A stretch of 45,726 nucleotides of DNA from Actinomycetes bacterium. GTDB lineage: Bacteria; Actinomycetota; Acidimicrobiia; Acidimicrobiales; RAAP-2. The number at the start of each line of letters is the position of its first letter. The stretch's first letter is position 1. A program made the translations under genes and the position numbers. This document shows, piece by piece, positions 12,026-23,769 of the stretch. The DNA lies in contig JAJXUK010000014.1 of the NCBI GenBank assembly GCA_021782915.1, forward strand, positions 1 through 45,726, given 5' to 3'. The notes beneath the pieces were generated by a model. It did not search any database, had not been told where the DNA came from, and saw only the letters and a list, made by a program, of their open reading frames with translations.

Positions 12026-12089
12026 GGCCGCCGGCGCCCTCGGGTCGGGCCCGCGGGTGCGCCAGGAGGGCCCGGTGGCGCCTCGGGCC

Positions 12090-15000
12090 TCAGGCCGAGA
12101 CGGTGTCGGCGTACTGCTGGCGGAAGAGGTGTGCGTAGAGCCCGTCGCTGGCCAGGAGGGTCTGGTGGTCACCCGTCTCCACGACGCGTCCCGCGTCGAG
12201 CACGACGATGAGCTCGACGTCGCGGATGCTCGCGAGTCGGTGGGTGACGACGAAGGTCGTGCGACCCTTGGACACCACCTTCATGTTGCGCTGGATCGTC
12301 TGCTCGCTCTCGGCGTCGAGGGCGCTGGTCGCCTCGTCGAGGAAGATGACGGGTGGGTCGCGATAGAGCGCTCGCGCGATGGAGATTCGCTGGGCCTGTC
12401 CACCCGAGAGGGTGATGCCGCCCTCGCCGATGCGCGTGTCGAATCCGAGGGGCAGCAGGTCGACGAACGTGTCCACGTCGGCGATCTGGGCGGCGCGGCG
12501 CAGCGCCGCCGGATCGATCTCGGGATTGCCGAAGGCGATGTTCTCGGCCACCGTGGCGTCGAAGATGTACGGGGTCTGCAGGACGTAGCCGATGCGCGCG
12601 CGCAGGGCCTGCAGGCGCACGTCGGCGATGTCGGTGCCGTCGTACTTGATCGAGCCCTGCGTGGGCGTGATGAGCCCCGAGAGCAGTCGCAGCAGGGTGG
12701 ACTTGCCGCACCCCGAGCGGCCCACCAGTGCCACGCGCGCCCCGGCGGGGACCTCGAGGCTGACGTCGCTGAGGATCGCCTGGTCGGCCCCGGGGGGTCG
12801 ATACGCGACTCCCTCGAGCGAGATCTGCCCGTGCAGTGCCGGCATCGTGACGAGCGTGGAGGCCTCCGACCCCTCGCCCTGCTCGGGCTCTTGGACCAGG
12901 ACGTCGTGGATGCGCGCGAGCAGCACGGTGGAGTTCTGCATGTCGTCCCAGAAGAGCAGCAGCTCGAGGATGGGCGCCGTGGCGATGAGCACCAGTGACA
13001 TGAAGGCGACGTAGTGACCCAGCGAGAGCGAGTTGGCGTGCACCTGCAGCCCGCCCAGGTAGACGAAGAACGCGTACGTGGCCAGCGTGAGGGCGCTGGC
13101 CACGGTGCGGTAGCGGCCCACCGCGAGGTAGGCCGGGGCGAGCTGGGAGTTCAGGTCGCCCAGGAACGAGCGCATCCGCTCCTGCAGTCCCGTCTCGGCG
13201 CCCAGGGTCTTGACCGTCTCCACGCCCTTGAGCAGGTCCACCTGGTGGGCCTGGTAGAGGCCGTGGGCCTCCTCGGCCGAGGCGAAGATGGGGCGCAGCC
13301 TCGTCTTGGACCACCACATCACCGCGCCGTAGATGGGCAGCACGGCCAGGAACGCCACGCCGAGGCGCCAGGAGTACACGAGCATCATCGCGATGGCCAC
13401 GCCGAGCAGCAGGATGTTGGTGCCCGCGCTGACGCCGTCTTGGATCAGCAGCGTGCGAATCGTGCGCATGCCCCCGATGCGGCGCTCGAGGTCGCCAATC
13501 TTGCGACGGGCGAAGTAGCTCATCGGCAGGTGCAGCAGCTTGCCGGTGAGAAAGTCGAGCGAGTGCGTGTCGAAGCCGATCGTGACCTTGACGATCACGC
13601 GGTTGGCGACGATGCTGATGAGGAGGCCGGCGATGACGAGCCCGAGCAGCGCGAGGCCCGACGCGTTCACGCTGGCGAGGCTGCCGTGCGAGGTCAGCGA
13701 GCCGACCAGGCTGTTGATCACCACGGGAACGCCGACCTCGCACCCCGCCAGCGCCAGGGCGAGCACGAGGGAGATCGAGAGTGCGGCGCGCTGCTCCAGC
13801 AGGAACGGCACGAGCCATCCGAGGGCCAGATTGTCCGTGGGCGCCTCGTCGAGCGCGTCGGTGCGAGTCACGAAGGCCGCGTAGCCCGTCCAGTCGCGTT
13901 CGAAGTCGGTGCGCGCCAGCACCCGCAGCCCGATCGCCGGGTCCGCGACGTAGACGTGCGTCGGCGTGATCGCGTAGAGGACGATCCAGTGGTTGCCCTT
14001 GTAGTGCACGATCGCGGGCAGCTGGTAGTCGTCGAGTCGCTCGCTGGACGCGTGCACCGGCTCCACGGCGAGTCCCGCGGCCCGTCCCGCACGCGTGATG
14101 CCGGTCAGTGAGGTGCCCTGGATGCCCGTTCCGGCCGCGTCGCGCAGGAACGCGGTGGAGACCTTGCGCCCGAAGTGGCGCGACACCATCGCGAGGCACG
14201 CGACGCCGCAGTCGGACTCGTCGAACTGTGCGACGAAGGGAAAGCGCGCGACGCGCCGCTTCGGGCTTGAGGTCGCCTTGAGCGGCGCGTGGCCCTGGGC
14301 GATCGCCGCGTCGGTGGCGCTGAGCGCCTCGGCGGAATGCTCCGCTCCGCCTGGCGAGGGCGTCTCGAGGGGTGCCGCGCGCGCGACGTTGGTCAGATCG
14401 GCCATCTCCTGGAGCCGTGCGGCGAAGCGGGGGCTCGCCTGCATCAGCTCGCGCAGGGTCGAGGGGCCCACGCGGATCACCTCGACGTCGCCCTGGGCGA
14501 CGACGGAGGCGTCGGCGACCAGATCGCTCAGCGCGCCGCGCTCGCCGAAGCAGTCACCGCTGCGCAGGAAGCCGACCACCGCGCGCTCCTCGCCGCGCAC
14601 GACGGCCAGCGTGCCTCGCGCGACCACGTAGATCCCGTCGCTCGGGCCGCCCTCCGAGAGGATCGTCTCGTTCGCCCCGACGCTCAGGGCCTCGAACTCG
14701 TCGAAGAATTGCGACAGGACCGTCAGCTGGATCATGGCGAACGCTGGCTGGAGTCGCAGTGTGCGACGGATCTCCTCGAGGCGCACGTGGCGCCGCAGGG
14801 CCTCGGCGATGGCGGGGACCTCGTCGGCCAGGGCGTCGAAGGCCTCGCGGCCCAGTCGGTAGACGGTGACGTCCTCGCTCGCGCGCACGGTCTCGACGCG
14901 CCGGTCGCTCTCGATGAGCGCGTCCTCGCCGAACAGGTCCCCCGGCAGCACCCGGGCCAGCATCACCTCGGCCGTGCCGCGGTGCGTCACGATGCGCGCG

Positions 15001-15209
15001 CTCCCCGAGCCGAGCACGTACAGGCTGTGGGGCACCTCGCCCTCGCGGCAGATCTCGTCGCCGAAGTCGAAGCTCTCGCGCCGAAACATGCGCAGGACGA
15101 GGCTCCTCAGCTCATCGGGCACCAGGGCGATGAAGGGCACCTGGCGCAGGGCGACGAAGTCGGCCTCGTCCAGCATCCCGTCGAGGGGACCTATCTCGGT
15201 GCGTGCCAC
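12090..15209 (-). CDS. Peptidase C39-containing ABC exporter with two cNMP-binding folds
   Basis: 1039 aa. Residues ~20-145 and ~155-275 are two cyclic-nucleotide-binding-like beta barrels. Residues ~320-455 are a C39 peptidase with all key residues: Gln328, Cys334 in ESDCGVACLAM, His407 in GNHWIV and Asp423 in VADPAIG. Residues ~465-755 are the ABC membrane domain and ~795-1035 the ATPase, with Walker A GRSGCGKST, signature LSGGQAQRISIARAL, Walker B VIFLDEATSALD and H-loop VVTHRLAS. Such exporters cleave a leader after Gly-Gly and export the rest. The first nucleotide fold keeps an Arg near the phosphate-cassette position; the second does not (LVADASVV). The start GTG 15209 overlaps the upstream parvulin-like gene by 19 nt, implying coupling. 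The likely substrate is the 39-aa Gly-Gly peptide at 16430-16549. Confidence 0.93.
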   Translation of the reverse strand: MARTEIGPLDGMLDEADFVALRQVPFIALVPDELRSLVLRMFRRESFDFGDEICREGEVPHSLYVLGSGSARIVTHRGTAEVMLARVLPGDLFGEDALIESDRRVETVRASEDVTVYRLGREAFDALADEVPAIAEALRRHVRLEEIRRTLRLQPAFAMIQLTVLSQFFDEFEALSVGANETILSEGGPSDGIYVVARGTLAVVRGEERAVVGFLRSGDCFGERGALSDLVADASVVAQGDVEVIRVGPSTLRELMQASPRFAARLQEMADLTNVARAAPLETPSPGGAEHSAEALSATDAAIAQGHAPLKATSSPKRRVARFPFVAQFDESDCGVACLAMVSRHFGRKVSTAFLRDAAGTGIQGTSLTGITRAGRAAGLAVEPVHASSERLDDYQLPAIVHYKGNHWIVLYAITPTHVYVADPAIGLRVLARTDFERDWTGYAAFVTRTDALDEAPTDNLALGWLVPFLLEQRAALSISLVLALALAGCEVGVPVVINSLVGSLTSHGSLASVNASGLALLGLVIAGLLISIVANRVIVKVTIGFDTHSLDFLTGKLLHLPMSYFARRKIGDLERRIGGMRTIRTLLIQDGVSAGTNILLLGVAIAMMLVYSWRLGVAFLAVLPIYGAVMWWSKTRLRPIFASAEEAHGLYQAHQVDLLKGVETVKTLGAETGLQERMRSFLGDLNSQLAPAYLAVGRYRTVASALTLATYAFFVYLGGLQVHANSLSLGHYVAFMSLVLIATAPILELLLFWDDMQNSTVLLARIHDVLVQEPEQGEGSEASTLVTMPALHGQISLEGVAYRPPGADQAILSDVSLEVPAGARVALVGRSGCGKSTLLRLLSGLITPTQGSIKYDGTDIADVRLQALRARIGYVLQTPYIFDATVAENIAFGNPEIDPAALRRAAQIADVDTFVDLLPLGFDTRIGEGGITLSGGQAQRISIARALYRDPPVIFLDEATSALDAESEQTIQRNMKVVSKGRTTFVVTHRLASIRDVELIVVLDAGRVVETGDHQTLLASDGLYAHLFRQQYADTVSA

Positions 15210-16237
15210 GTCACCAGTCCCTTGGCCGCATTCGCCACCGCCGCGTCCACGAGGGTGGCGGTGGCGTGGGCGCGAACGCTCGGGTCCTCCAGTGAGGCAT
15301 CCGCGCGCTCGCGCACCCAGACCACCGACCAGTCGCCCCCGAGCTGCAGCGGGCCGAGAGCCGTGTCCAGGCCCGAGGAGAGCAGCAGCGAGCCGAGCTC
15401 GTCGCTCAGATCTCCGGAGCGCACGCGACGCTGCTCGATCCTCGAGTGGGCCCGTCGCGCGATCTCGGCGAGCTCCATCGCGTCGTCATTCGCGCACGCG
15501 ATCGCCTCGCGGGCGGCCGACTCACTGGACAGCGCGCAGGTGTCGATCGTCAGCACGGTCCACCTCGACCAGTCCCCCTCGAGCGTGGCCCGCAGCGCGG
15601 CGTCGCTGGCGACCAGATGGTCGAGGTCGCGATAGGCCGCGAGCCACGTCGACACGAGCGCGAGGCGCTCGTCGATCCAGGCGGGGTCGTAGGCGGCCAG
15701 GGGCGTGAGCGGATCGCTCGCGACGGCCTCGCGGCCCCGCGCGAGGTCGCTGGCGTCAGCCTCGGCCGGAGCCAGGCTCGCGGCGACGGCCCAGGACACG
15801 ACGCGGGATCCGACCGAGGACCAGAATCCCTCGCAGTAGGCGTCGGTGTGCAGGGCGCTCGTGAACTCGGCGTCGAGGTCCTCGAGCCGGGGCGCGGGCC
15901 CGGAGGCGTCGTCGGTGAGAACGTGGCGGCGCAGGTGGGCCTCCCAGTCGGCCTGCGAGAGTCCTCGCTCGTCGAGCCAGGTGTGCAGGTCGTGGCCCGC
16001 CTCGAGGTGGCGCTCGCGGCGGAAGCGCTCGGCCGCTCGACGCAGCTCGAGCGCTCCGACCTCGGTGGCGGCGCTCGAGCGCCGGGCACTGGCACAGCGG
16101 CGTACGAGGGCGTCCCACTCGCCGGTGATGTAGCCGGCGAGCACCACATCGGCGAACGTGATCTCGGTCTCGCCGACGCTCACGAGCACGCCGTCGGGCA
16201 CCGCGCTCGCGCCCGGTGTCGTGGGCTCGCTGGTCAC
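15191..16237 (-). CDS. Parvulin/SurA-related peptide-maturation protein
   Basis: 348 aa from GTG 16237; GAAGGAG 5 nt upstream decides this start over an upstream in-frame one. No signal peptide, so probably cytoplasmic. Residues ~50-120 form a SurA-like helical segment (ELRRAAERFRRERHLEAGHDLHTW...LSQADWEAHLRRHVL). Residues ~225-340 resemble a parvulin (PpiC-type) domain: sequential AAREAIACANDDAMELAEIARRA, SGDLSDELGSLLLSSGLDTALGPLQLGG and WSVVWVRERADASLEDPSVRAHA. Proteins of this build are known beside C39 peptide exporters. Whether the prolyl-isomerase site is active is unclear. Inference: holds or delivers the leader peptide to the exporter. It is second in a peptide-parvulin-exporter order and overlaps the exporter gene by 19 nt. 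Confidence 0.75.
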   Translation of the reverse strand: MTSEPTTPGASAVPDGVLVSVGETEITFADVVLAGYITGEWDALVRRCASARRSSAATEVGALELRRAAERFRRERHLEAGHDLHTWLDERGLSQADWEAHLRRHVLTDDASGPAPRLEDLDAEFTSALHTDAYCEGFWSSVGSRVVSWAVAASLAPAEADASDLARGREAVASDPLTPLAAYDPAWIDERLALVSTWLAAYRDLDHLVASDAALRATLEGDWSRWTVLTIDTCALSSESAAREAIACANDDAMELAEIARRAHSRIEQRRVRSGDLSDELGSLLLSSGLDTALGPLQLGGDWSVVWVRERADASLEDPSVRAHATATLVDAAVANAAKGLVTWHAPR

Positions 16238-16429
16238 GCTGACTCCTTCACGTGAGGAACGACGCTGAGTTGCGCCACGCCGCACGCGCGCGGCCCCGAC
16301 GCGCGATCAGGGGCCCTCGGGCATCGAAACGGGCTTGCGCCGCGTCGGTGAGCGCGAGGGCCGTGACTGACGCAACGACGGCCGGCTCCCATGAGGCGAA
16401 CCGACCGTCGTTGGTGCTGAACTGCTTCG

Positions 16430-16549
16430 TTAAAATTCGTGCATTCCGCCGACGACTCCGTCGGTGTCGGACTTCTCGAGCTCAAGGTCCGCGTCGAGCT
16501 CGTCGGTGGTGTCAGTGACTGTGGTGTCCGCTGCTTCTTTCTCAGCCAT
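16430..16549 (-). CDS. 39-aa double-glycine leader peptide, putative exporter substrate
   Basis: A small gene too short for routine calling. The ATG at 16549 follows a strong GAGGGGGG ribosome-binding site with 5-nt spacing, and a near-consensus promoter lies 50 nt upstream. The product starts MAEKEAADTTVTDTTDELDA, is strongly acidic, and ends LEKSDTDGVVGGMHEF. The hydrophobic-acidic stretch before VVGG is what C39 peptidases recognise in leader peptides. Cleavage after Gly-Gly (residues 34-35) would leave only MHEF. The next genes on this strand are a parvulin-like protein and a C39 ABC exporter. Alternatives: the full-length acidic peptide is the product, or MHEF is a very short signal or cofactor precursor. 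No modification enzyme (LanM, YcaO, radical SAM) is nearby. Gene confidence is good; function is inferred. Confidence 0.72.
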   Translation of the reverse strand: MAEKEAADTTVTDTTDELDADLELEKSDTDGVVGGMHEF

Positions 16550-16568
16550 TGTGGCCCCCCTCATTGAG

Positions 16569-16591
16569 AATCCGGCACGTGATGCCGGATT
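16569..16591 (-). promoter_or_regulatory. 9-bp palindrome at the peptide gene transcription start
   Basis: AATCCGGCA and TGCCGGATT are exact reverse complements around a 5-nt centre. The site begins 6 nt after the -10 box (16597-16602) and ends 20 nt before the start codon. It could be an operator over +1 or a 5' mRNA hairpin. Confidence 0.55.
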
Positions 16592-16596
16592 CGCTC

Positions 16597-16625
16597 ATTA
16601 GACCATCGCTGGTGTCGAATGTCAA
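16597..16625 (-). promoter_or_regulatory. Near-consensus sigma70 promoter of the peptide gene
   Basis: On the minus strand, TTGACA (16620-16625) and TCTAAT (16597-16602) are separated by exactly 17 nt. That is 6/6 and 5/6 matches to consensus, unusual in such GC-rich DNA, and it implies strong transcription of the peptide and perhaps the whole export locus. Confidence 0.75.
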
Positions 16626-16995
16626 CGAAAGTTGTGATTGGCCGTGGCCGCAAGAATGCCCCGCCGTGGGCACTTTCGGCGCGGAGACGGGCTGTGACGT
16701 CGCGTTGGCTGAGAACGTCCTCAGACAGGGTGGTGTCCGTGCCCCGTGTCGCCCGTTCAGCTTCGCTCTTCGCACCCGGCGTCGTGAAGCCCCGAGCACG
16801 CCCGAGCGTCGTGAGGCGACGACGACTCCGTCGGTGTCGACGGCTGTGGCGAGTGAAGCTCACCGCGGCCCGGGTCGCTGATCGCGCACGCGCACGCGCA
16901 GAAGCCCGAGCCCGCTCACGGTGGGCCCGTCGCGTCGCCGCGAGGATCACGCTCGGCGCCTGTCGCTCCCGCGTGAGCGTGCAAGGCTCTGCGGA
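16626..16995. other. Gene-free region upstream of the peptide promoter
   Basis: About 370 bp with no credible gene. It holds a second copy (16820-16839) of a 20-nt sequence, CGACGACTCCGTCGGTGTCG, that is also inside the peptide gene at 16450-16469, where it encodes the DTDGVV region. A 7-bp hairpin (16948-16954 with 16975-16981) could terminate the dehydrogenase operon. Confidence 0.5.
16948..16981 (-). terminator. Weak hairpin after the 3-hydroxybutyrate dehydrogenase gene
   Basis: CACGCTC and GAGCGTG flank a 20-nt loop, just beyond the stop codon (16996-16998) of the last gene of the minus-strand operon. Confidence 0.3.
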
Positions 16996-17778
16996 CTACT
17001 GGGCGGTCCATCCCCCGTCGATCGGCAGGGCGGCTCCGGTCATCGTGGCCGCGTCGTTCGAGCACAGGTACTGGGCCAGTGCGCCGATCGCGTCGGGCCG
17101 AGTGAAGCTCAGCATGGGCTGCTTCTCGCTCAGCAGCGCCTCGCTCTCGATCAGGCTCGAGGTGCCGTTCGCCTCGGCCCGCGCGGCGATTTGGGCCTCG
17201 ACCAGCGGGGTGAGCACCCAGCCGGGGCAGATGGCATTCACCGTCACCCCGGAGTTGGCCAGCTCGAGGGCCGCGACCTTGGTCGCCCCGAGCACGCCGT
17301 GCTTGGCGGCCACGTAGGCGACCTTGTGCACGCTGGCCACCAGCCCGTGGGCCGAGGCGATGTTGATGATCCGGCCCCAGCCGCGGCGGCGCATGTGCGG
17401 GATCGCGGCGCGCATGCCGAGGAAGACGGCGCTGAGATTGAGCGCGATGATCGCGTTCCAGCGCTCGATCGGGAAGTCCTCCACGGGCGCGACGTGCTGG
17501 ATGCCCGCGTTGTTCACGAGGATGTCCACCGAGCCGAGGGCCTCGTGGGCCGCCGCGATCAGCTCGCTCGGCCCGTCGGACGTTGCCAGGTCGGCGCCGT
17601 GGAAGGCGACGGGTACGTCGTAGCGCTCGCTCAGGGCCCGGCGCATCGCCTCGATCTGCGAGGGCTCGCCGAAGCCGTTGAGCATCACCGCCGCACCCTG
17701 GGCGGCGAGGGCCTGCGCGACGCCGAGGCCGATGCCGCTGGTCGAACCGGTCACCACCGCGCACTTGTCTCTCAGCAT
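16996..17778 (-). CDS. bdhA: 3-Hydroxybutyrate dehydrogenase (SDR family)
   Basis: 260 aa, ATG 17778 with GGGAGG upstream. A classical short-chain dehydrogenase: cofactor motif TGSTSGIGLG (10-19), NNAG (89-92), Ser142, Tyr155 and Lys159. The C-terminal part, ICPGWVLTPLVEAQI, LLSEKQPMLSFTRPDAIG and IDGGWTAQ, matches bacterial D-3-hydroxybutyrate dehydrogenases closely, including the lid helix and the exact C-terminus. Reaction: 3-hydroxybutyrate + NAD+ to acetoacetate. It is the last gene of the livJ-G-F-H-M operon, 11 nt after livM. An acetoacetate-CoA ligase gene lies at 25987-27942. This context suggests that the transporter imports 3-hydroxybutyrate or a related acid. Confidence 0.9.
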   Translation of the reverse strand: MLRDKCAVVTGSTSGIGLGVAQALAAQGAAVMLNGFGEPSQIEAMRRALSERYDVPVAFHGADLATSDGPSELIAAAHEALGSVDILVNNAGIQHVAPVEDFPIERWNAIIALNLSAVFLGMRAAIPHMRRRGWGRIINIASAHGLVASVHKVAYVAAKHGVLGATKVAALELANSGVTVNAICPGWVLTPLVEAQIAARAEANGTSSLIESEALLSEKQPMLSFTRPDAIGALAQYLCSNDAATMTGAALPIDGGWTAQ

Positions 17779-17789
17779 GTGAGCCTCCC

Positions 17790-18839
17790 TCACTCTTCTC
17801 GTCGACCACGGCGAGGTGTTCGCCATCGCGCGAGGGCACCGGCCAAGCCGCCGGGCACGAAGATCACGAAGAGCACGAAGATCGCCCCGAGAAGGAACTG
17901 GGGCTGCGAGAGCGGCACGCGCAGCACGCTGGGCAGGTTGGCGAAGGCCGGTTCGCTGGCCACCTTCAGCAAGTACTGCTGGAGATAGACGTAGAGGAAG
18001 CCGCCGGCCACGACGCCCCAGCGCGAGCCGGCCCCACCGAGCACGACCATGACGAGCACCGAGATCGTCAAGGTGGTCGAGGCCACGGCACTGGGCACGG
18101 CGGTGCCGATGAGCAGGATGTAGACCACGCCACCGGCCGAGGCGATCAGCGAGGAGAGCACGAAGGCGCCGAGGCGATATCCGAAGGGGCGCAGGCCCAG
18201 CACCTCCAGGCGCGCGTCGTTGTCGCGCAGGGCGCGCCAGACGTGGCCCACGGAGGACTCCGTGACGAGGTACACCACGCCGTAGGTGGCCACGAGGAAC
18301 CCGAGGGCCACCCAGTAGACGTAGCGCGTGTCCACGACCGCTCCGGACAGGAAGCCGGGCAGGCGGCTGGAGGACAGCGCCAAGCCGGTGTCGCCGCCGG
18401 TGAGGCCGTGCGGATTGTCCTCCACCAGGTAGTAGAAGGCCTGGGCGAAGGCCAGGGTCACCATGGAGAAGGCGATGCCGCGCACTCGCAGAGCGATCGC
18501 GCCCAGCACGATGGCGCTGAGGAGCCCGACCAGCCCGGTCACACCGAGCGCGGCACCCAGTGACCAGCCCCAGTGGGTCATCGCCACGTCGAAGACGTAG
18601 ACGCCCTCGCCGAAGAAGAGCACCGAGCCCAGCGAGAGCAGACCGGCGAATCCGAAGAGCACGTCGTAGCCGAGCGAGACGCCGCCGAAGAGGAAGCACA
18701 GGGCCAGCACGCCGAGGGTCCCCGTGGAGTTGACGACGTTCACCGTGCCCGGCAGCACCCAGGGCACCGTGAGGCCGATGAAGGGCACGAGCCCGGCGAG
18801 CAGGATCCCGGCGCCCACGGCGGCGTGCCGGACTCTCAC
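17790..18839 (-). CDS. livM: Liv-type ABC transporter permease (LivM)
   Basis: 349 aa from GTG 18839, which overlaps the livH stop by 4 nt (GTGA); a longer frame extends into livH and is rejected. About nine or ten membrane spans. Family marks include GYDVLFGFAGLLSLGSVLFFGEGVYV near the start, RVRGIAFSMVTLAFAQAFYYL, the EAA-like loop RALRDNDARLEVLGLRPFGYRLGAFVLSSLIASAGGVVY, and LGGAGSRWGVVAGG. It pairs with LivH to form the pore of a hydrophobic-amino-acid-type importer. The substrate of the complex is uncertain because the operon ends in a 3-hydroxybutyrate dehydrogenase. Confidence 0.92.
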   Translation of the reverse strand: MRVRHAAVGAGILLAGLVPFIGLTVPWVLPGTVNVVNSTGTLGVLALCFLFGGVSLGYDVLFGFAGLLSLGSVLFFGEGVYVFDVAMTHWGWSLGAALGVTGLVGLLSAIVLGAIALRVRGIAFSMVTLAFAQAFYYLVEDNPHGLTGGDTGLALSSSRLPGFLSGAVVDTRYVYWVALGFLVATYGVVYLVTESSVGHVWRALRDNDARLEVLGLRPFGYRLGAFVLSSLIASAGGVVYILLIGTAVPSAVASTTLTISVLVMVVLGGAGSRWGVVAGGFLYVYLQQYLLKVASEPAFANLPSVLRVPLSQPQFLLGAIFVLFVIFVPGGLAGALARWRTPRRGRREE

Positions 18840-19741
18840 AGGGTCCTGCCGAAGAGACCGCGGGGCCGCCACTCGAGCACGAGCGCCAGAATGAGCACCA
18901 CCGACAGGTTGCCGACTTCCGCGAAGCCGCTGTGGGCACCGAGGTAGAAGTTGGTGTAGTCCTGCACGAGGCCCACCATCACGGCCGCGACCGCCGAGCC
19001 GCGGATGGAGCCCAGTCCGCCGATGACCACCACGATGAACGCGAAGATCAGCAGCGAGTCACCCTGGGTGGGCGAGACGAGATCGCCGGCGAAGACGACT
19101 GCGTACAAGAGCCCGGCCAGCCCGGCCATGGCGCCGCCGATCACGAAGACGAGCGTGAAGGCGCGTGAGACGTCCACGCCCAGGGCGCGCACCATGTCGC
19201 GGTTCTCCACTCCCGCGCGCACGATGATGCCGTAGCGCGTGCGCTGCAGGAAGTACTCCAGGCAGACGAGGACGACCACGCCGGCCACGAGGGCGACGAT
19301 GTCGGCGTGGGGCAACACGACCTGGCCGACGCGGGTGGCCTCGAGCATCCACAGAGACGTGGGCAGCGACTGGGGGTTCGACCCGAAGCCGCCGAGCAGG
19401 AGGCCCACGACCGCCAGGTCCAGGCCGATCGTGACGAGGATCTGGCTGACCGGTCGGGCGTAGAGCGGTCGGATCAGGAGCAGCTCGGTGAGCAGCGCGA
19501 CCAGAGCGCCCGCGAGCGTGGCGCTGAGAAGCTCGATGACGAACAGCCAGGCGCCGCCCCAGCTCGCGGGCAGGTGGCTGGCCAGATCCCAGCCGGCGTA
19601 GGCGCCCAGGGTCATGAAGAGCCCGTGGGCGAAGTTGAGCACGTCCATCAGGCCGTAGATGAGCGAGAGTCCCGAGGCGGCGAGGAAGTAGATGGACCCG
19701 AGGGCCAGTCCGGCGGCGCTGAGGGAGAGAAAGACGCTCAT
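18836..19741 (-). CDS. livH: Liv-type ABC transporter permease (LivH)
   Basis: 301 aa, ATG 19741 overlapping the livF stop by 4 nt (ATGA). Eight or so membrane spans. Typical LivH sequence: LALGSIYFLAASGLSLIYGLMDVLNFAHGLFMTLGAY near the start, the cytoplasmic loop GIIVRAGVENRDMVRALGVDVSRAFTLVFVIGGAMAGLAG, and FVVVIGGLGSIRGS-like sequence near the end. It forms the inner-membrane channel together with LivM. All five transporter genes are tightly packed, so the complex is made from one mRNA. Confidence 0.93.
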   Translation of the reverse strand: MSVFLSLSAAGLALGSIYFLAASGLSLIYGLMDVLNFAHGLFMTLGAYAGWDLASHLPASWGGAWLFVIELLSATLAGALVALLTELLLIRPLYARPVSQILVTIGLDLAVVGLLLGGFGSNPQSLPTSLWMLEATRVGQVVLPHADIVALVAGVVVLVCLEYFLQRTRYGIIVRAGVENRDMVRALGVDVSRAFTLVFVIGGAMAGLAGLLYAVVFAGDLVSPTQGDSLLIFAFIVVVIGGLGSIRGSAVAAVMVGLVQDYTNFYLGAHSGFAEVGNLSVVLILALVLEWRPRGLFGRTL

Positions 19742-20433
19742 GCGGATCCGGCGACCCCGAGGTGCTGGCGCGTGAGTGCCGGATCGCTCAGGTCCTCTAC
19801 CGATCCGGTGTGCACGACCACGCCGTGGTCGAGCACGACGACGTGCGAGGCGAGGCGGCGCACGAGGGCCAGGTTCTGCTCGACCAGCAGGACGGTCGCG
19901 GCCTCGGCCACTCGTTCCAGTGCCTCTGCTAGCTCGCCGATCACTTTGGGCGCCAGGCCCTTGGAGGGTTCGTCGATGAGCAGGAGCGGCCAGCGGTTCA
20001 GGAGCACGCGCGCGATCGCCAGCATCTGCTGCTGGCCGCCCGAGAGCGTGCCGGCGCGCTGGCGGCGCCGCGTGCGCAACTCGGGGAAGAGGGCGAAGAC
20101 CGTGTCGTAGTCGGGTGTGGATCGCGCCTCGGCGAGTCGCAGGTTCTCCGCCACACTCAGCCCGGCGAAGACGTCACGGTCTTCGGGCACGTAGCCCACG
20201 CCGAGTCGCACGACGCGGTGTGTGGCCAGCTGATCGGTGTCCTGGCCGAGGATCTCGACGTGCCCGGTGCGCGCCGTGAGGTTCATCAGTGCCCGCAGGG
20301 TCGTGGTCTTGCCCACTCCATTGCGCCCGAGGAGCGCGGTCACACCACCGGACGCCACGTCCAGGTCGACGCCCTGGAGCACGTGCGAGCCCGCGAGGCT
20401 CACGTGAAGGTCCTTGACGGTGATCGCGTTCAC
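19738..20433 (-). CDS. livF: Liv-type ABC transporter ATPase (LivF)
   Basis: 231 aa from GTG 20433, overlapping the livG stop by 4 nt. Walker A LLGRNGVGKTTT, the LivF-typical GVGYVPEDRDVFAGLSVAENL (Q-loop region), signature LSGGQQQMLAIARVL, Walker B LLLIDEPSKGLAP and H-loop region VLLVEQN. LivF normally pairs with LivG to drive import by the LivH-LivM pore. Length is normal for the family (~235 aa). Confidence 0.94.
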   Translation of the reverse strand: MNAITVKDLHVSLAGSHVLQGVDLDVASGGVTALLGRNGVGKTTTLRALMNLTARTGHVEILGQDTDQLATHRVVRLGVGYVPEDRDVFAGLSVAENLRLAEARSTPDYDTVFALFPELRTRRRQRAGTLSGGQQQMLAIARVLLNRWPLLLIDEPSKGLAPKVIGELAEALERVAEAATVLLVEQNLALVRRLASHVVVLDHGVVVHTGSVEDLSDPALTRQHLGVAGSA

Positions 20434-21197
20434 AGCGGTTGGCCCAGGTAGGCGCGTTGCACGTCGTCGTTGGCGATCACGTCCTCGGGTGTCCCGCAGG
20501 CGAGGAGGCGCCCGGAGTCCAGGACGGCCACGGTGTCGGCGAGGCCGATGACGACCGAGAGGTGGTGCTCGACCATGACGACGGTGCGGCCCTCGGCGTG
20601 CAGGGCACTGATCAGCGCGCTGAGCTCGGGTATGTCCTGGGTGTTCACGCCCGCCATGGGCTCGTCCAGCAGCAGCGTGCGGGCCTCGCTCGCCAGCAGG
20701 ATCGCCAGTTCCAGCTTGCGCTTCTCGCCGTGTGAGAGCCCCGCGGTGATGCGTGAGGACTGCTCGGTGAGCTGCACCCGCTCGAGGGCCTCGTGTGCGG
20801 CCGCACTCGCGGGGTCGGCTTCTCGCGGTGCGCGCCAGAAGTTCGTCGTTCCGCCGCGCTGGACCTGGGCGGCGAGGCGCACGTTCTCGAAGACGCTCAG
20901 TGACTCGAAGAGGGTGGAGGTCTGAAAGGTGCGACCCAGGCCCAGTCGGGCGCGGCGCGCGGGACGAAGTCGCGTGACGTCCGCACCGTTCAGCTCGATG
21001 GACCCGCTGCTCGGGCGGATGACACCGTTGAGCAGGTTGAGCAAGGTCGACTTGCCCGCGCCGTTGGGTCCGATGAGACCGAGCAGACTGCCGGCAGGCA
21101 CCTCGAGGGTGACGTCCTCGAGGATGATCGCTCCCCCGACGCGATAGCCCAGCGCCCGCGCCGCTAGCGCGGGTGGGGCCATCGCGTCGGGGGTCAC
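20430..21197 (-). CDS. livG: Liv-type ABC transporter ATPase (LivG)
   Basis: 255 aa from GTG 21197; ATG 21182 is an alternative 15 nt downstream. Walker A GLIGPNGAGKST, Q-loop region GLGRTFQTSTLFESLSVFENV, a LivG-style signature LSHGEKRKLELAILLA in place of the usual LSYGxQRxLEIARAL, Walker B TLLLDEPMAGVNTQD and H-loop MVEHHLSVVIGLAD. The MAGVN segment is diagnostic of LivG. Ten nt separate it from the binding-protein gene upstream. Confidence 0.94.
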   Translation of the reverse strand: MTPDAMAPPALAARALGYRVGGAIILEDVTLEVPAGSLLGLIGPNGAGKSTLLNLLNGVIRPSSGSIELNGADVTRLRPARRARLGLGRTFQTSTLFESLSVFENVRLAAQVQRGGTTNFWRAPREADPASAAAHEALERVQLTEQSSRITAGLSHGEKRKLELAILLASEARTLLLDEPMAGVNTQDIPELSALISALHAEGRTVVMVEHHLSVVIGLADTVAVLDSGRLLACGTPEDVIANDDVQRAYLGQPL

Positions 21198-21207
21198 GTC
21201 AGTGATT

Positions 21208-22419
21208 TCAGCCGAAGTGGCCGCTCACCGGGGGCGCGGACTGGGTGGCGCTCAGCGTCGCGAGGTTGACCGGCTTGTAGACGCCGGTCACCGTGGACAC
21301 CAGCTGGACCTGGAACATCGGCTGGAGCATCGCGTGGTCGCTCGTGCGGATCTGCTGGGGTCCCTTGGGCGCGTTGAACTTCCAGCCTTCGAGACCCTTG
21401 ATCATCTTCATCACGTTGGTGCCCTGGCCGGTCTGGATGGCGCGCACCACCATCTGGGCCCAGACGAAGCCGTCAGCCGTGAACAGGTCCGGGTACGCCT
21501 TGTACTGGGCCAGCATCTGCTTGATGAGGTAGGCGTTGACCGCGTTGTGCGGAGACTCCCAGTTGTACAGCGAGATGTAGTAGAACTTCAGGCCCGCGGT
21601 CCCGTAGAACTGGTACGTGGCGGTGTTGGCCAGCCCGGTGATGACCTTCGAGCTCGAGAAGATGCCCTGCTGGTCGAGGGCCTGGGCGAGCGGGGCACCG
21701 GTGGCACCGGCCCACGCCAGGAACACGATGTCCGGGTGGTCGGCCTGCACCTGCAGGGCCGTCGGCGTGAAGTCCGTGGTCGTCAGGGGAACCAGCAGGC
21801 TGGTGACGGTGTCGCCCAGCGCGCTGAAGGCCTGCGTGCAGTCGGTGACGTAGCTCTGGCCGAAGGCGAAGTCCTGGGCCAGCACGAGGACCGTCTTGCC
21901 CGAGCCGAGCGCCTTGACGTAGCTCTTGGCGGCCTGCACGTCCTGGTAGGTCTGGCGACCCGAGCGGAACGTGTAGCGGTTCGCGCCGGTGATCTGGTCC
22001 GCCGCGGCGGGGCCCGAGATGTAGAGGACCTTGTTCTTCTGGGCCAGCGGGGCGAGCTCGGTGGCGATGCCCGAGTCGACGGTGCCGCCGATGATCTTGT
22101 AGCCCGATCCGACGAAGCTGTTGAAGTCGGTGGCTGCCGTGGTCGGGTTGTCGGCGTCATCGACGGTCGTCAGGCGGATCGGGTGCCCGTTCACCTTGTT
22201 CGTGCCCTTGGTGGCGTACTGGAAGCCGATCTTGACCCCCTGGAGCCACTCTTGGGTGTAGGCCGAGAAGATCCCGGTCTTCTCGGTGACGATGCCCACC
22301 TTGACGGCGCTGGCCGCCTTGGTCGCGGCGTTCGAGGTGATGCTCGTGCCCAGCGTCACGCCCAGCATCGCGCTGGCCGCGATGGCGGGCGCCATGACCC
22401 TTCGCACTGTCCTTCTCAT
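21208..22419 (-). CDS. Liv-type substrate-binding protein
   Basis: 403 aa, ATG 22419 with GGGGAGG 4-5 nt upstream. Residues 1-33 form a signal peptide (MRRTVRRVMAPAIAASAMLG, ending near SNAA) without a lipobox, so the protein is secreted rather than a typical lipoprotein. The rest is a type I periplasmic-binding fold: VKVGIVTEKTGIFSAYTQEWLQG at the start, IIGGTVDSGIATELAPLAQKNKVLYISGPAAAD in the middle, and PDLFTADGFVWAQMVVRAIQTG later. It binds the substrate for the LivGFHM complex. Homologues bind branched-chain amino acids, amides, or organic and aromatic acids. The downstream bdhA suggests a short hydroxy or keto acid, but this is inference. Confidence 0.88.
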   Translation of the reverse strand: MRRTVRRVMAPAIAASAMLGVTLGTSITSNAATKAASAVKVGIVTEKTGIFSAYTQEWLQGVKIGFQYATKGTNKVNGHPIRLTTVDDADNPTTAATDFNSFVGSGYKIIGGTVDSGIATELAPLAQKNKVLYISGPAAADQITGANRYTFRSGRQTYQDVQAAKSYVKALGSGKTVLVLAQDFAFGQSYVTDCTQAFSALGDTVTSLLVPLTTTDFTPTALQVQADHPDIVFLAWAGATGAPLAQALDQQGIFSSSKVITGLANTATYQFYGTAGLKFYYISLYNWESPHNAVNAYLIKQMLAQYKAYPDLFTADGFVWAQMVVRAIQTGQGTNVMKMIKGLEGWKFNAPKGPQQIRTSDHAMLQPMFQVQLVSTVTGVYKPVNLATLSATQSAPPVSGHFG

Positions 22420-22461
22420 TGGTCCTCCCCACGTTGGTGTTGGCCGAGGCGGCCTAGGGGC

Positions 22462-22490
22462 AGTACAGCAGGTTGCGACAAAAATGTCAA
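22462..22490 (-). promoter_or_regulatory. Promoter of the liv-bdhA operon
   Basis: On the minus strand, TTGACA (22485-22490) and TGTACT (22462-22467) are separated by 17 nt, with the start codon ~43 nt further on. A GACA-AAAA-TGTC dyad (22477-22488) overlaps the -35 box and could bind the TetR-family regulator encoded at 23808. Confidence 0.6.
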
Positions 22491-22542
22491 GTGAATCAGG
22501 CATCAGTTTCGCGCTACGCTGCCGACGAGGAAGGGAGGCCGC

Positions 22543-23769
22543 ATGGCCCAGCTCGAAGCCCACGTCGAACCCGATCAGGTCGGTCTCGACTCGCGCGCCC
22601 TGGAGCGGGTGAGCGCCTACCTCGACGGCTACGTGTCCACGGGGCGCCTGGCCGGCTGGCTCGTCACGCTCTCGCGTGGTCCCGAGCTGGCCTGGGTGGG
22701 CCGTGGGGGGCACCGCGACCGCGAGGCGAATCGACCCGTGGAGGACGACACGCTCTGGCGCCTCTACTCGATGACCAAGCCGATCACCTCCATCGGCGCG
22801 ATGATGCTCTACGAGGAGGGCGCCTTCGACCTGAACGACGACGTGGGCCAGTGGATCGACGAGCTCGCCGAGCCACGCGTCTACGTCTCGGGTCCGGCCA
22901 GTGACCCGGTCACCATGCCCTCGCCCGAGCCGGTGCGCGTGCAGCACCTGCTGAGCCACACCAGCGGGCTGACCTACGGATTCCAGTACCGCACGCCCGT
23001 GGACGCGATGTATCGCGAGCGCGGCTACGACATGTTCTGGCCCGAGGAGAAGGACCTCGGCGAGGGCGTGCACGACTGGTGCACCCTGCCGCTGCTCTTC
23101 GCGCCCGGCACGGCCTGGAACTACTCGGTGGCCACCGACGTGCTCGGCCGGCTCATCGAGATCTGGTCGGGTCAGAGCCTGGACGACTTCCTCTTCGAGC
23201 GCGTGCTGGGGCCCCTGGGCATGAACGACACGACGTGGTGGACGCGCGAGGACCAGCTCGAACGACTGGCCGCGCTCTACGTGCACGACGGGCAGGCCCG
23301 GCGTCAGGACGAGCTCGGCGCCGTGGCCACGCGGGCCACGAGGCTCCTGTCCGGTGGTGGAGGGCTGCTCTCGAGCGCGGGGGACTACCAGCGCTTCATG
23401 TCCATGCTGCTGGGCCAGGGCCGCCTGGGTGAGACGCGCCTGATCTCCGCGCGCACGCTGGACCTCATGGCGAGCAACCACCTCCCTGGTGGTGCGGACC
23501 TGGCGAGCTTTGCCCGTGACTCCTTCAGCGAGGTCGGCCAGAGCGGGGTGGGCTTCGGGCTGGGCTTCTCGGTGGTGCTGGACCGCGTGGCCAATCGCAG
23601 TCTGGTCTCGCCGGGCACGATCGCGTGGGGTGGGGCGGCCTCGACGTACTTCTGGGTGGACCGCACCGAGGGCCTCGCCGTGGCCCTGTACACCCAGCTG
23701 CTGCCGAGCTGGACCTACCCGTTGCGCCGGGACCTGCAGCAGCTCGTCTACGCCGCCCTGAGAGCGTAG
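22543..23769 (+). CDS. Serine hydrolase of the beta-lactamase/family VIII esterase fold
   Basis: 408 aa, ATG with GGGAGG at 22533-22538. No signal peptide, so cytoplasmic. The nucleophile motif SxxK is Ser76-Met-Thr-Lys79, and the second catalytic Tyr is likely Tyr194 in PGTAWNYSVA, where class C beta-lactamases have YxN and esterases often YSV or YSL. LLSHTSGLTYGF and the late GGAASTYFWVD segment fit the family. Typical activities are cleavage of short-chain esters or beta-lactams. It is transcribed divergently from liv-bdhA and is first in an operon with a TetR regulator and an acyl-CoA ligase. Inference: it may hydrolyse an ester such as a 3-hydroxybutyrate oligomer. Confidence 0.85.
   Translation: MAQLEAHVEPDQVGLDSRALERVSAYLDGYVSTGRLAGWLVTLSRGPELAWVGRGGHRDREANRPVEDDTLWRLYSMTKPITSIGAMMLYEEGAFDLNDDVGQWIDELAEPRVYVSGPASDPVTMPSPEPVRVQHLLSHTSGLTYGFQYRTPVDAMYRERGYDMFWPEEKDLGEGVHDWCTLPLLFAPGTAWNYSVATDVLGRLIEIWSGQSLDDFLFERVLGPLGMNDTTWWTREDQLERLAALYVHDGQARRQDELGAVATRATRLLSGGGGLLSSAGDYQRFMSMLLGQGRLGETRLISARTLDLMASNHLPGGADLASFARDSFSEVGQSGVGFGLGFSVVLDRVANRSLVSPGTIAWGGAASTYFWVDRTEGLAVALYTQLLPSWTYPLRRDLQQLVYAALRA

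Follow-up and report, generated by a model that had tools for sequence, protein, structure and literature searches.

Exporters with a C39 peptidase domain are mostly viewed as secretors of bacteriocins or longer pheromones. The system described here lies on the minus strand of a 45,726-nucleotide stretch from an actinomycete of the Acidimicrobiales (contig JAJXUK010000014.1; hereafter the window, meaning the whole stretch analysed) and comprises a promoter, a gene for a 39-residue precursor peptide with a glycine–glycine (GG) leader, a gene for a SurA-like partner protein, and a gene for an exporter in which two cyclic nucleotide monophosphate (cNMP)-binding domains precede a C39 peptidase and an ATP-binding cassette (ABC) transporter. 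It is likely to be a self-contained short-peptide export system that trims the precursor at the GG and releases the tail, probably as a strain-specific signal.

HetC of Anabaena/Nostoc PCC 7120 has the same cNMP–C39–ABC layout and, like the window exporter, no adjacent membrane-fusion protein gene; it is tied to short regulatory peptides (PMC10986499, PMC4133259). The cNMP part of HetC binds guanosine tetraphosphate (ppGpp) in vitro and is needed for function (PMC10986499). Neither a substrate nor a GG precursor is reported for HetC, whereas in the window such a precursor is encoded together with a SurA-like partner. In a cyanobacterial survey, groups I, II, and VI combine a long-type C39 exporter bearing CAP_ED with a SurA-like protein and GG precursors of variable core (PMC3140520). 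Precursors in these clusters span 39–164 residues, with group II starting at 39, and HlyD is reported in every group; by contrast, the window cassette holds no HlyD and the scanned neighbouring genes are not HlyD (a genome-wide search was not made), and its tail of four to five residues stands against whole precursors of 39–164 residues in groups I, II, and VI (PMC3140520). PteB of Synechococcus elongatus shares with the window exporter a C39 domain, a HetC-like domain organisation, and GG precursors. Its substrates EbfG1–4 are secreted and needed for biofilm formation, but mature EbfG, at 6–7 kDa, is far longer (PMC4997328). PteB thus offers a precedent for a non-bacteriocin role of C39 exporters. 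The rosaritide cluster MirA–D likewise unites a precursor, a PpiC-like partner, and a peptidase-containing ABC transporter (PCAT) in one actinobacterial cluster, but includes a graspetide synthetase and a partner of family TIGR04500, for which the window partner gives no match. MirC is described as having a SurA-like C-domain joined to an N-domain with weak resemblance to a RiPP (ribosomally synthesised and post-translationally modified peptide) recognition element, and modification needs both domains (PMC13097080).

The combination of a SurA-like protein, a long-type C39 exporter, and GG precursors is therefore already known from cyanobacteria (PMC3140520). What appears new is an actinobacterial form with no HlyD in the cassette, the occurrence of the three genes as a unit in two genomic settings, arrays of precursors with mostly single-cysteine tails of 7–15 residues, and, above all, tails of four to five residues. 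Nothing fitting an ultra-short GG cargo or such an actinobacterial system was found among the open-licence PubMed Central papers listed. Were the tails released as proposed, no C39 exporter would, to our knowledge, have a shorter cargo than that of the window genus.

The initial annotation had reported a near-consensus promoter driving a 39-residue peptide that ends DTDGVVGG–MHEF, and both elements were recovered. The peptide gene is an open reading frame (ORF) at 16549–16430 (MAEKEAADTTVTDTTDELDADLELEKSDTDGVVGGMHEF), preceded at 16562–16555 by a ribosome-binding site (GAGGGGGG) 5 nt ahead of the ATG. The precursor reads MAEKEAADTTVTDTTDELDADLELEKSDTDGVVGG followed by MHEF, so that only four residues lie beyond the GG; it contains no proline, and its acidic leader follows the pattern LDxDLxLEx...VxGG. 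Upstream, a TTGACA box (16625–16620) is separated by a 17-nt spacer from TCTAAT (16602–16597). This promoter (16625–16597) was read from the sequence, and both boxes with the same 17-nt spacing stand ahead of all four peptide-gene copies in three genomes. A strict promoter scan returned 0 sites: its rule wants A at position 2 of the −10 box, which the conserved TCTAAT fails.

Those three genomes are the only ones among 99 of the genus in which the exporter was found, and a profile search finds the leader in the same three, with no match in the 96 genomes lacking the exporter (E ≤ 0.01). The leader profile included peptides of the window genus, and this co-occurrence is hence to be read as absence elsewhere, not as independent discovery. 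In the two sister genomes (G021 and G030), the exporter is ~82–83% and the partner 63–64% identical to the window proteins. When 1-kb pieces of window positions 1–45000 were compared by blastn (E ≤ 1e-10) with the neighbourhoods L032, L033, L034, and L042, matches to the sister neighbourhoods (stretches of 19–20 kb) were confined to ~12072–16639, which runs from the promoter through the end of the exporter gene. The two sister neighbourhoods have flanks in common with each other. Because homology is limited to the cassette while the sister flanks are alike, the promoter and the three genes appear to form a single unit that occurs in two settings, which may reflect either movement of the cassette itself or rearrangement of its surroundings. 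The homologous block 12072–16639 holds three genes and no modification enzyme, HlyD, or regulator, in agreement with the earlier observation that no lanthipeptide, YcaO, or radical SAM enzyme is present.

It had been proposed that relatives keeping the exporter should also keep the small gene and its GG motif, and both other exporter-bearing genomes of the genus do so, with VVGG or VIGG. The G021 precursor ends DTDGVVGG–VMFE, and G030 has two genes, whose products end DTDGVVGG–FTFEG and ESDDVIGG–MNLRE. The latter gene (L033 14025–14144), the more diverged of the two, lies upstream, with a promoter of its own and a strong 5′ hairpin (z −4.82). In G021, no clear relic of such an upstream gene was seen. 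In the window, a 23-nt repeat at 16817–16839, upstream of the peptide gene, matches the sequence coding for DTDGVV at 96% and may be what is left of a second peptide gene such as G030 has; aligned with the G030 peptide gene, this upstream region scores 42, against a shuffle maximum of 46, with 6 of 300 shuffles equal or above.

Chance resemblance of the leader was assessed with a position-specific scoring matrix (PSSM) of the last 18 leader residues, trained on genera other than that of the window. Window-genus peptides score 15.8, 21.2, and 29.0, the G021 peptide and one G030 copy (G030b) sharing a score and the window peptide scoring 21.2. No match above 14 occurred in 850,213 bp of other sequence (87 loci averaging 45% G+C plus the window flanks). 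Since this background was mostly of low G+C content, two controls were added: loci over 60% G+C (117,543 bp) gave no match above 10, and a triplet-shuffled window (685,845 bp) reached at most 13.5. Within the whole window, the 39-residue peptide is the sole match above 10. In leave-one-out tests, two leader seeds, one each from loci L050 and L053, reached no more than 6.0 and 6.6, under the background level. The genome to which the window belongs (2.15 Mb, 84 contigs) has one C39 match and one match to the peptide or leader profile; a second leader was found neither by profile (E ≤ 0.01) nor by single sequence (E ≤ 10), and no rival substrate of the GG type was thus detected. Together with the joint presence of leader and exporter in the same 3 of 99 genomes, these comparisons support the earlier proposal and make the peptide a well-supported candidate substrate of the exporter.

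The exporter gene (15209–12090) encodes 1039 residues, in which Pfam recognises two cNMP-binding domains, C39, an ABC membrane domain, and an ATPase. The peptidase triad described in the initial annotation is intact: Cys334, His407, and Asp423 are present, as are Gln328, Walker A, the signature, and Walker B. In alignments with PCAT1 and ComA chains, the three triad positions coincide with the catalytic C39 residues of PCAT1, and the C39 residues are invariant across five aligned exporter proteins. Fusion of such a C39 domain to ABC membrane and ATPase domains, alongside a cognate precursor with a GG-ending leader, defines the protein as a PCAT, and the cNMP-binding part ahead of C39 gives it the layout of the long-type, HetC/PteB-like exporters. 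None of the 25 NCBIfam models listed (of 202) is matched above its curated cut-off; the best, NHLM_micro_ABC1 (TIGR03796), gives 441.4 bits against a cut-off of 853.3.

The partner (16237–15191; 348 residues from a GTG start, with a longer ORF from 16285) matches no Pfam family at E ≤ 0.01 and no NCBIfam family at E ≤ 1. Its description as parvulin/SurA-like is nonetheless supported by profile and fold. A profile of the partner family finds SurA at E 5.4e-4 over the whole sequence, individual stretches being weak (0.08). In a structural model with a mean predicted local distance difference test score of 90.2, built from an alignment of 16 sequences, residues 223–317 resemble the PpiC-type domain 3gpk_B (Z 10.1, root-mean-square deviation (rmsd) 2.6, 94 residues aligned) and residues 227–312 the first parvulin domain of SurA, 2pv1_A (Z 9.3, rmsd 2.4). 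Whole-length Foldseek matches to SurA and PrsA have a large rmsd, and the solid match is the parvulin-like domain alone. The fold of an active parvulin is present, but its two catalytic-site histidines are not: at the positions that align by sequence with the parvulin active-site histidines, His occurs in at most 1 of 17 aligned partner proteins at each, and never at both together. As these histidines are lost and the window peptide is free of proline, isomerase activity on the peptide is unlikely. No signal-peptide-like stretch was seen (maximum 19-residue hydropathy 1.37). The most plausible role for the modelled protein is that of a chaperone or leader adaptor in the cytoplasm, its isomerase fold being presumably dead.

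The earlier gene order of peptide, chaperone, and exporter with overlaps stands for partner and exporter, which overlap by 19 nt, but not for peptide and partner, which are 192 nt apart when counted from the better partner start, the GTG at 16237 (Shine–Dalgarno sequence AAGGAG).

Relatives were collected by scanning genome contigs with the N-terminal half of the exporter, the best 80 of 188 being kept. Genome searches gave 4 of 395 genomes in the class, 5 of 396 in the phylum, and 4 of 35 in one further family, the window's own genome being counted where sampled. The comparison set comprises 23 distinct exporter loci, window included; 61 further loci (L064–L124) match only the C39 part and served as background. 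Left out of the 23 were L059 (29% identical from residue 46), L060 (matching only from residue 192), and G407 (22.5%, residues 21–695), none of which has a partner match or a precursor recognised by the leader PSSM. In 21 of the 23 loci, the partner gene adjoins the exporter gene or lies within ~1.6 kb of it. No partner match was seen at L058, kept in the set all the same, or at L134, a 6-kb contig ending at the exporter. Weak partner matches in G440 and G322 were set aside, as neither stretch has a match to a C39-bearing exporter and G322 has plain ABC matches only. The window partner does not match PpiC_rel_mature (TIGR04500, cut-off 180), and a relative in L034 reaches 23.8 bits.

A GG precursor is recognised in 16 of the 23 loci, with tails of 4–5 residues in the window genus, 10–12 in G050, and 15 to ~37 in other lineages; related leaders with longer tails occur in Acidimicrobiia, Mycolicibacterium, and Solirubrobacterales. 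In another actinobacterial family, the same exporter is accompanied by precursor arrays (G784, G823, and G856; loci L135, L136, and L143). Of 20 precursors read there, all with tails of 7–15 residues, 18 contain cysteine and 17 exactly one; examples are SLGCITF, SLGCMTF, SLACVTF, TSLDCRRH, and TTWHCMLW. The SLGCITF type resembles staphylococcal autoinducing peptides, which have 7–9 residues with one internal cysteine. Those peptides need AgrB; they contain cysteine, whereas the window-genus tails have none. One array tail, TTFNCPTSH, recurs without any residue change in these three genomes, each from a different genus: 2–5 of 30 nt are changed, all synonymously or in the stop codon, whereas the 20 leader residues ahead of it differ at 5–13 positions (ungapped). 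By sequence comparison, this tail is under selection and more strongly constrained than its leader, which speaks for the short stretch after the GG being the functional cargo of this exporter family.

Several GG precursors also lie near the exporter in Mycolicibacterium sp. CBMA 234 and 226 (L053 3976–4119 and L063 4116–4259), where the tail FNPQPEPPGKPTQRQ is identical in both isolates. A possible precursor in G816 (L134 5930–6085), near the exporter, has a longer leader ending VVGG that resembles Nif11-type leaders, and no ribosome-binding site was seen ahead of it. In a Pseudonocardia locus (L062 1378–4479), several precursor-like frames share an E-T-[ILV]-[AS]-D-L stretch and have cysteine-containing tails.

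Within the window genus, the tails MHEF, VMFE, FTFEG, and MNLRE keep to 4–5 residues in all four copies, which suggests, at the level of these sequences, a constraint on length. Their residues are replaced. Compared with its G021 counterpart, the window precursor has two changes in the last 18 residues of the leader and four in the four tail residues (Fisher p 0.0021); the other five pairs of copies, which are not independent, give p 0.024 to 0.29 for the same contrast. At the nucleotide level, 11 of 12 tail positions are changed between window and G021, against 0.394 at fourfold sites of the exporter; the corresponding values are 6 of 12 against 0.414 for window and G030b and 3 of 12 against 0.173 for G021 and G030b. 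A hidden frame extending the tail was considered and rejected, since conservation is poor in the DNA that follows and none of the frames is prolonged in the same way across the three genomes.

For cleavage, release, the partner's role, nucleotide gating, and signalling, we infer the following course. The peptide would be transcribed from its own promoter, and a hairpin past its stop codon would perhaps lower read-through into partner and exporter. The partner would hold the acidic leader unfolded or hand it to the C39 domain, which would recognise the leader and cut after the GG, and the ABC part would export the tail, here the four residues MHEF. By analogy with HetC, whose ppGpp-binding cNMP part is needed for function, export is probably made dependent on a nucleotide signal by the pair of cNMP-binding domains at the N-terminus. 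Once outside, the peptide would most likely act as a signal specific to the strain, since from one species to the next the tail is exchanged but its length, the leader, and the machinery are kept.

Several observations weigh against this reading. The genus sample amounts to four tails in three genomes, and in a neutral simulation (two lineages, 0.3 substitutions per site each) a tail of 4–5 codons persists with P ~0.20. Among the relatives, the precursors of L050, L062, and L134, counted within the 16, have a weak or different leader, and 7 of the 23 loci (L051, L052, L055, L056, L057, L058, and L061, some on short contigs) have no recognisable precursor; all seven belong to other lineages, namely five Verrucomicrobia, one Gemmatimonadaceae, and one planctomycete. 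With L059, L060, and G407 counted, the partner is found in 21 of 26 loci and the precursor in 16 of 26. The cassette also contains no receptor or regulator, and none was sought elsewhere.

That simulation, together with window-genus tails that change at or above fourfold-site rates, would fit a vestigial tail, in which an ancestral cargo has been lost, the leader–exporter pair is decaying or serves another purpose, and the four residues have no role. We regard this as unlikely, given that conservation extends to exporter, partner, promoter, and leader alike, that a tail of 4–5 residues is kept in four copies, and that a 9-residue tail in the related family is under strong purifying selection. 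An ordinary bacteriocin or microcin exporter whose real cargo is encoded elsewhere could be imagined from the several relatives with tails of at least 15 residues and from the cyanobacterial PCATs with SurA partners, which are termed bacteriocin clusters (PMC3140520); the absence of a second leader match in the own genome and a conserved block of just three genes make this improbable. For a cargo of the size seen here, moreover, 4–5 residues are too short for a membrane-active bacteriocin.

Equally to be weighed is modification of the tail, graspetide-like or as in another kind of RiPP, by an enzyme encoded away from the cassette, the partner serving as a leader-binding scaffold. Here the model is the Micromonospora cluster of MirC (TIGR04500), a PCAT (TIGR03796), and a precursor, in which the PpiC-like partner is described as required for modification (PMC13097080), and the partner of one relative does match TIGR04500 weakly. 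The homologous block contains no modification enzyme, the own genome has 0 matches to the graspetide synthetase TIGR04187 at E ≤ 0.001 (other RiPP enzymes were not sought genome-wide), and such tails would leave little room for a ring, so that we consider this very improbable.

Export of an unmodified short peptide as a signal thus remains the preferred interpretation. More tentatively, and at somewhat less than even confidence, the relatives can be joined into an actinobacterial micro-peptide pheromone family, in which a HetC-like peptidase-exporter and a catalytically dead SurA-like partner would cut and release ready-made peptides of 4 to ~15 residues directly at the C39 step. The precursors would be encoded singly or in arrays; some lineages would have hypervariable tails specific to the strain, others conserved tails with a single cysteine. 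If true, export of 4–15 residues would widen the range of C39 exporters and suggest how an exporter of the HetC type might produce morphogen-like peptides of very small size. It would also be a sign of peptide signalling among Acidimicrobiia and further Actinomycetota that have been little studied, for which synthetic peptides are cheap to test.

Two RNA elements flank the peptide gene. A palindromic hairpin in the 5′ leader (GAATCCGGCA-TCACG-TGCCGGATTC; 16592–16568) has a fold z of −1.93 in the window; the counterpart before the upstream G030 paralogue reaches −4.82, and those before the other two copies are weak (−1.43 and −0.54). Directly past the peptide stop, a hairpin with 16-nt arms of 88% complementarity (16413–16373; z −5.00) is possibly an attenuator between the peptide and the downstream genes; a stem was also placed there in the two sisters, but with z of only −0.68 and −1.62.

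The genes scanned next to the cassette have metabolic or unrelated products. To one side lie a short-chain dehydrogenase and a branched-chain amino-acid transporter set of the ABC type, with permeases, two ATPases, and a binding protein; this stretch (16996–23481) has no DNA match in the sister neighbourhoods. To the other lie a mycothiol-S-transferase-like protein and a PAS-GAF-HD protein. Just past the end of the exporter gene, G021 carries ~4 kb (L032 5096–9115) where G030 has less than 60 bp (L033 8784–8840), which suggests another insertion or deletion beside the cassette. A search of plasmid records gave 1537 matches; 7 reach a query coverage of 80% or more, and identity is no higher than 30.4% in the 15 listed.

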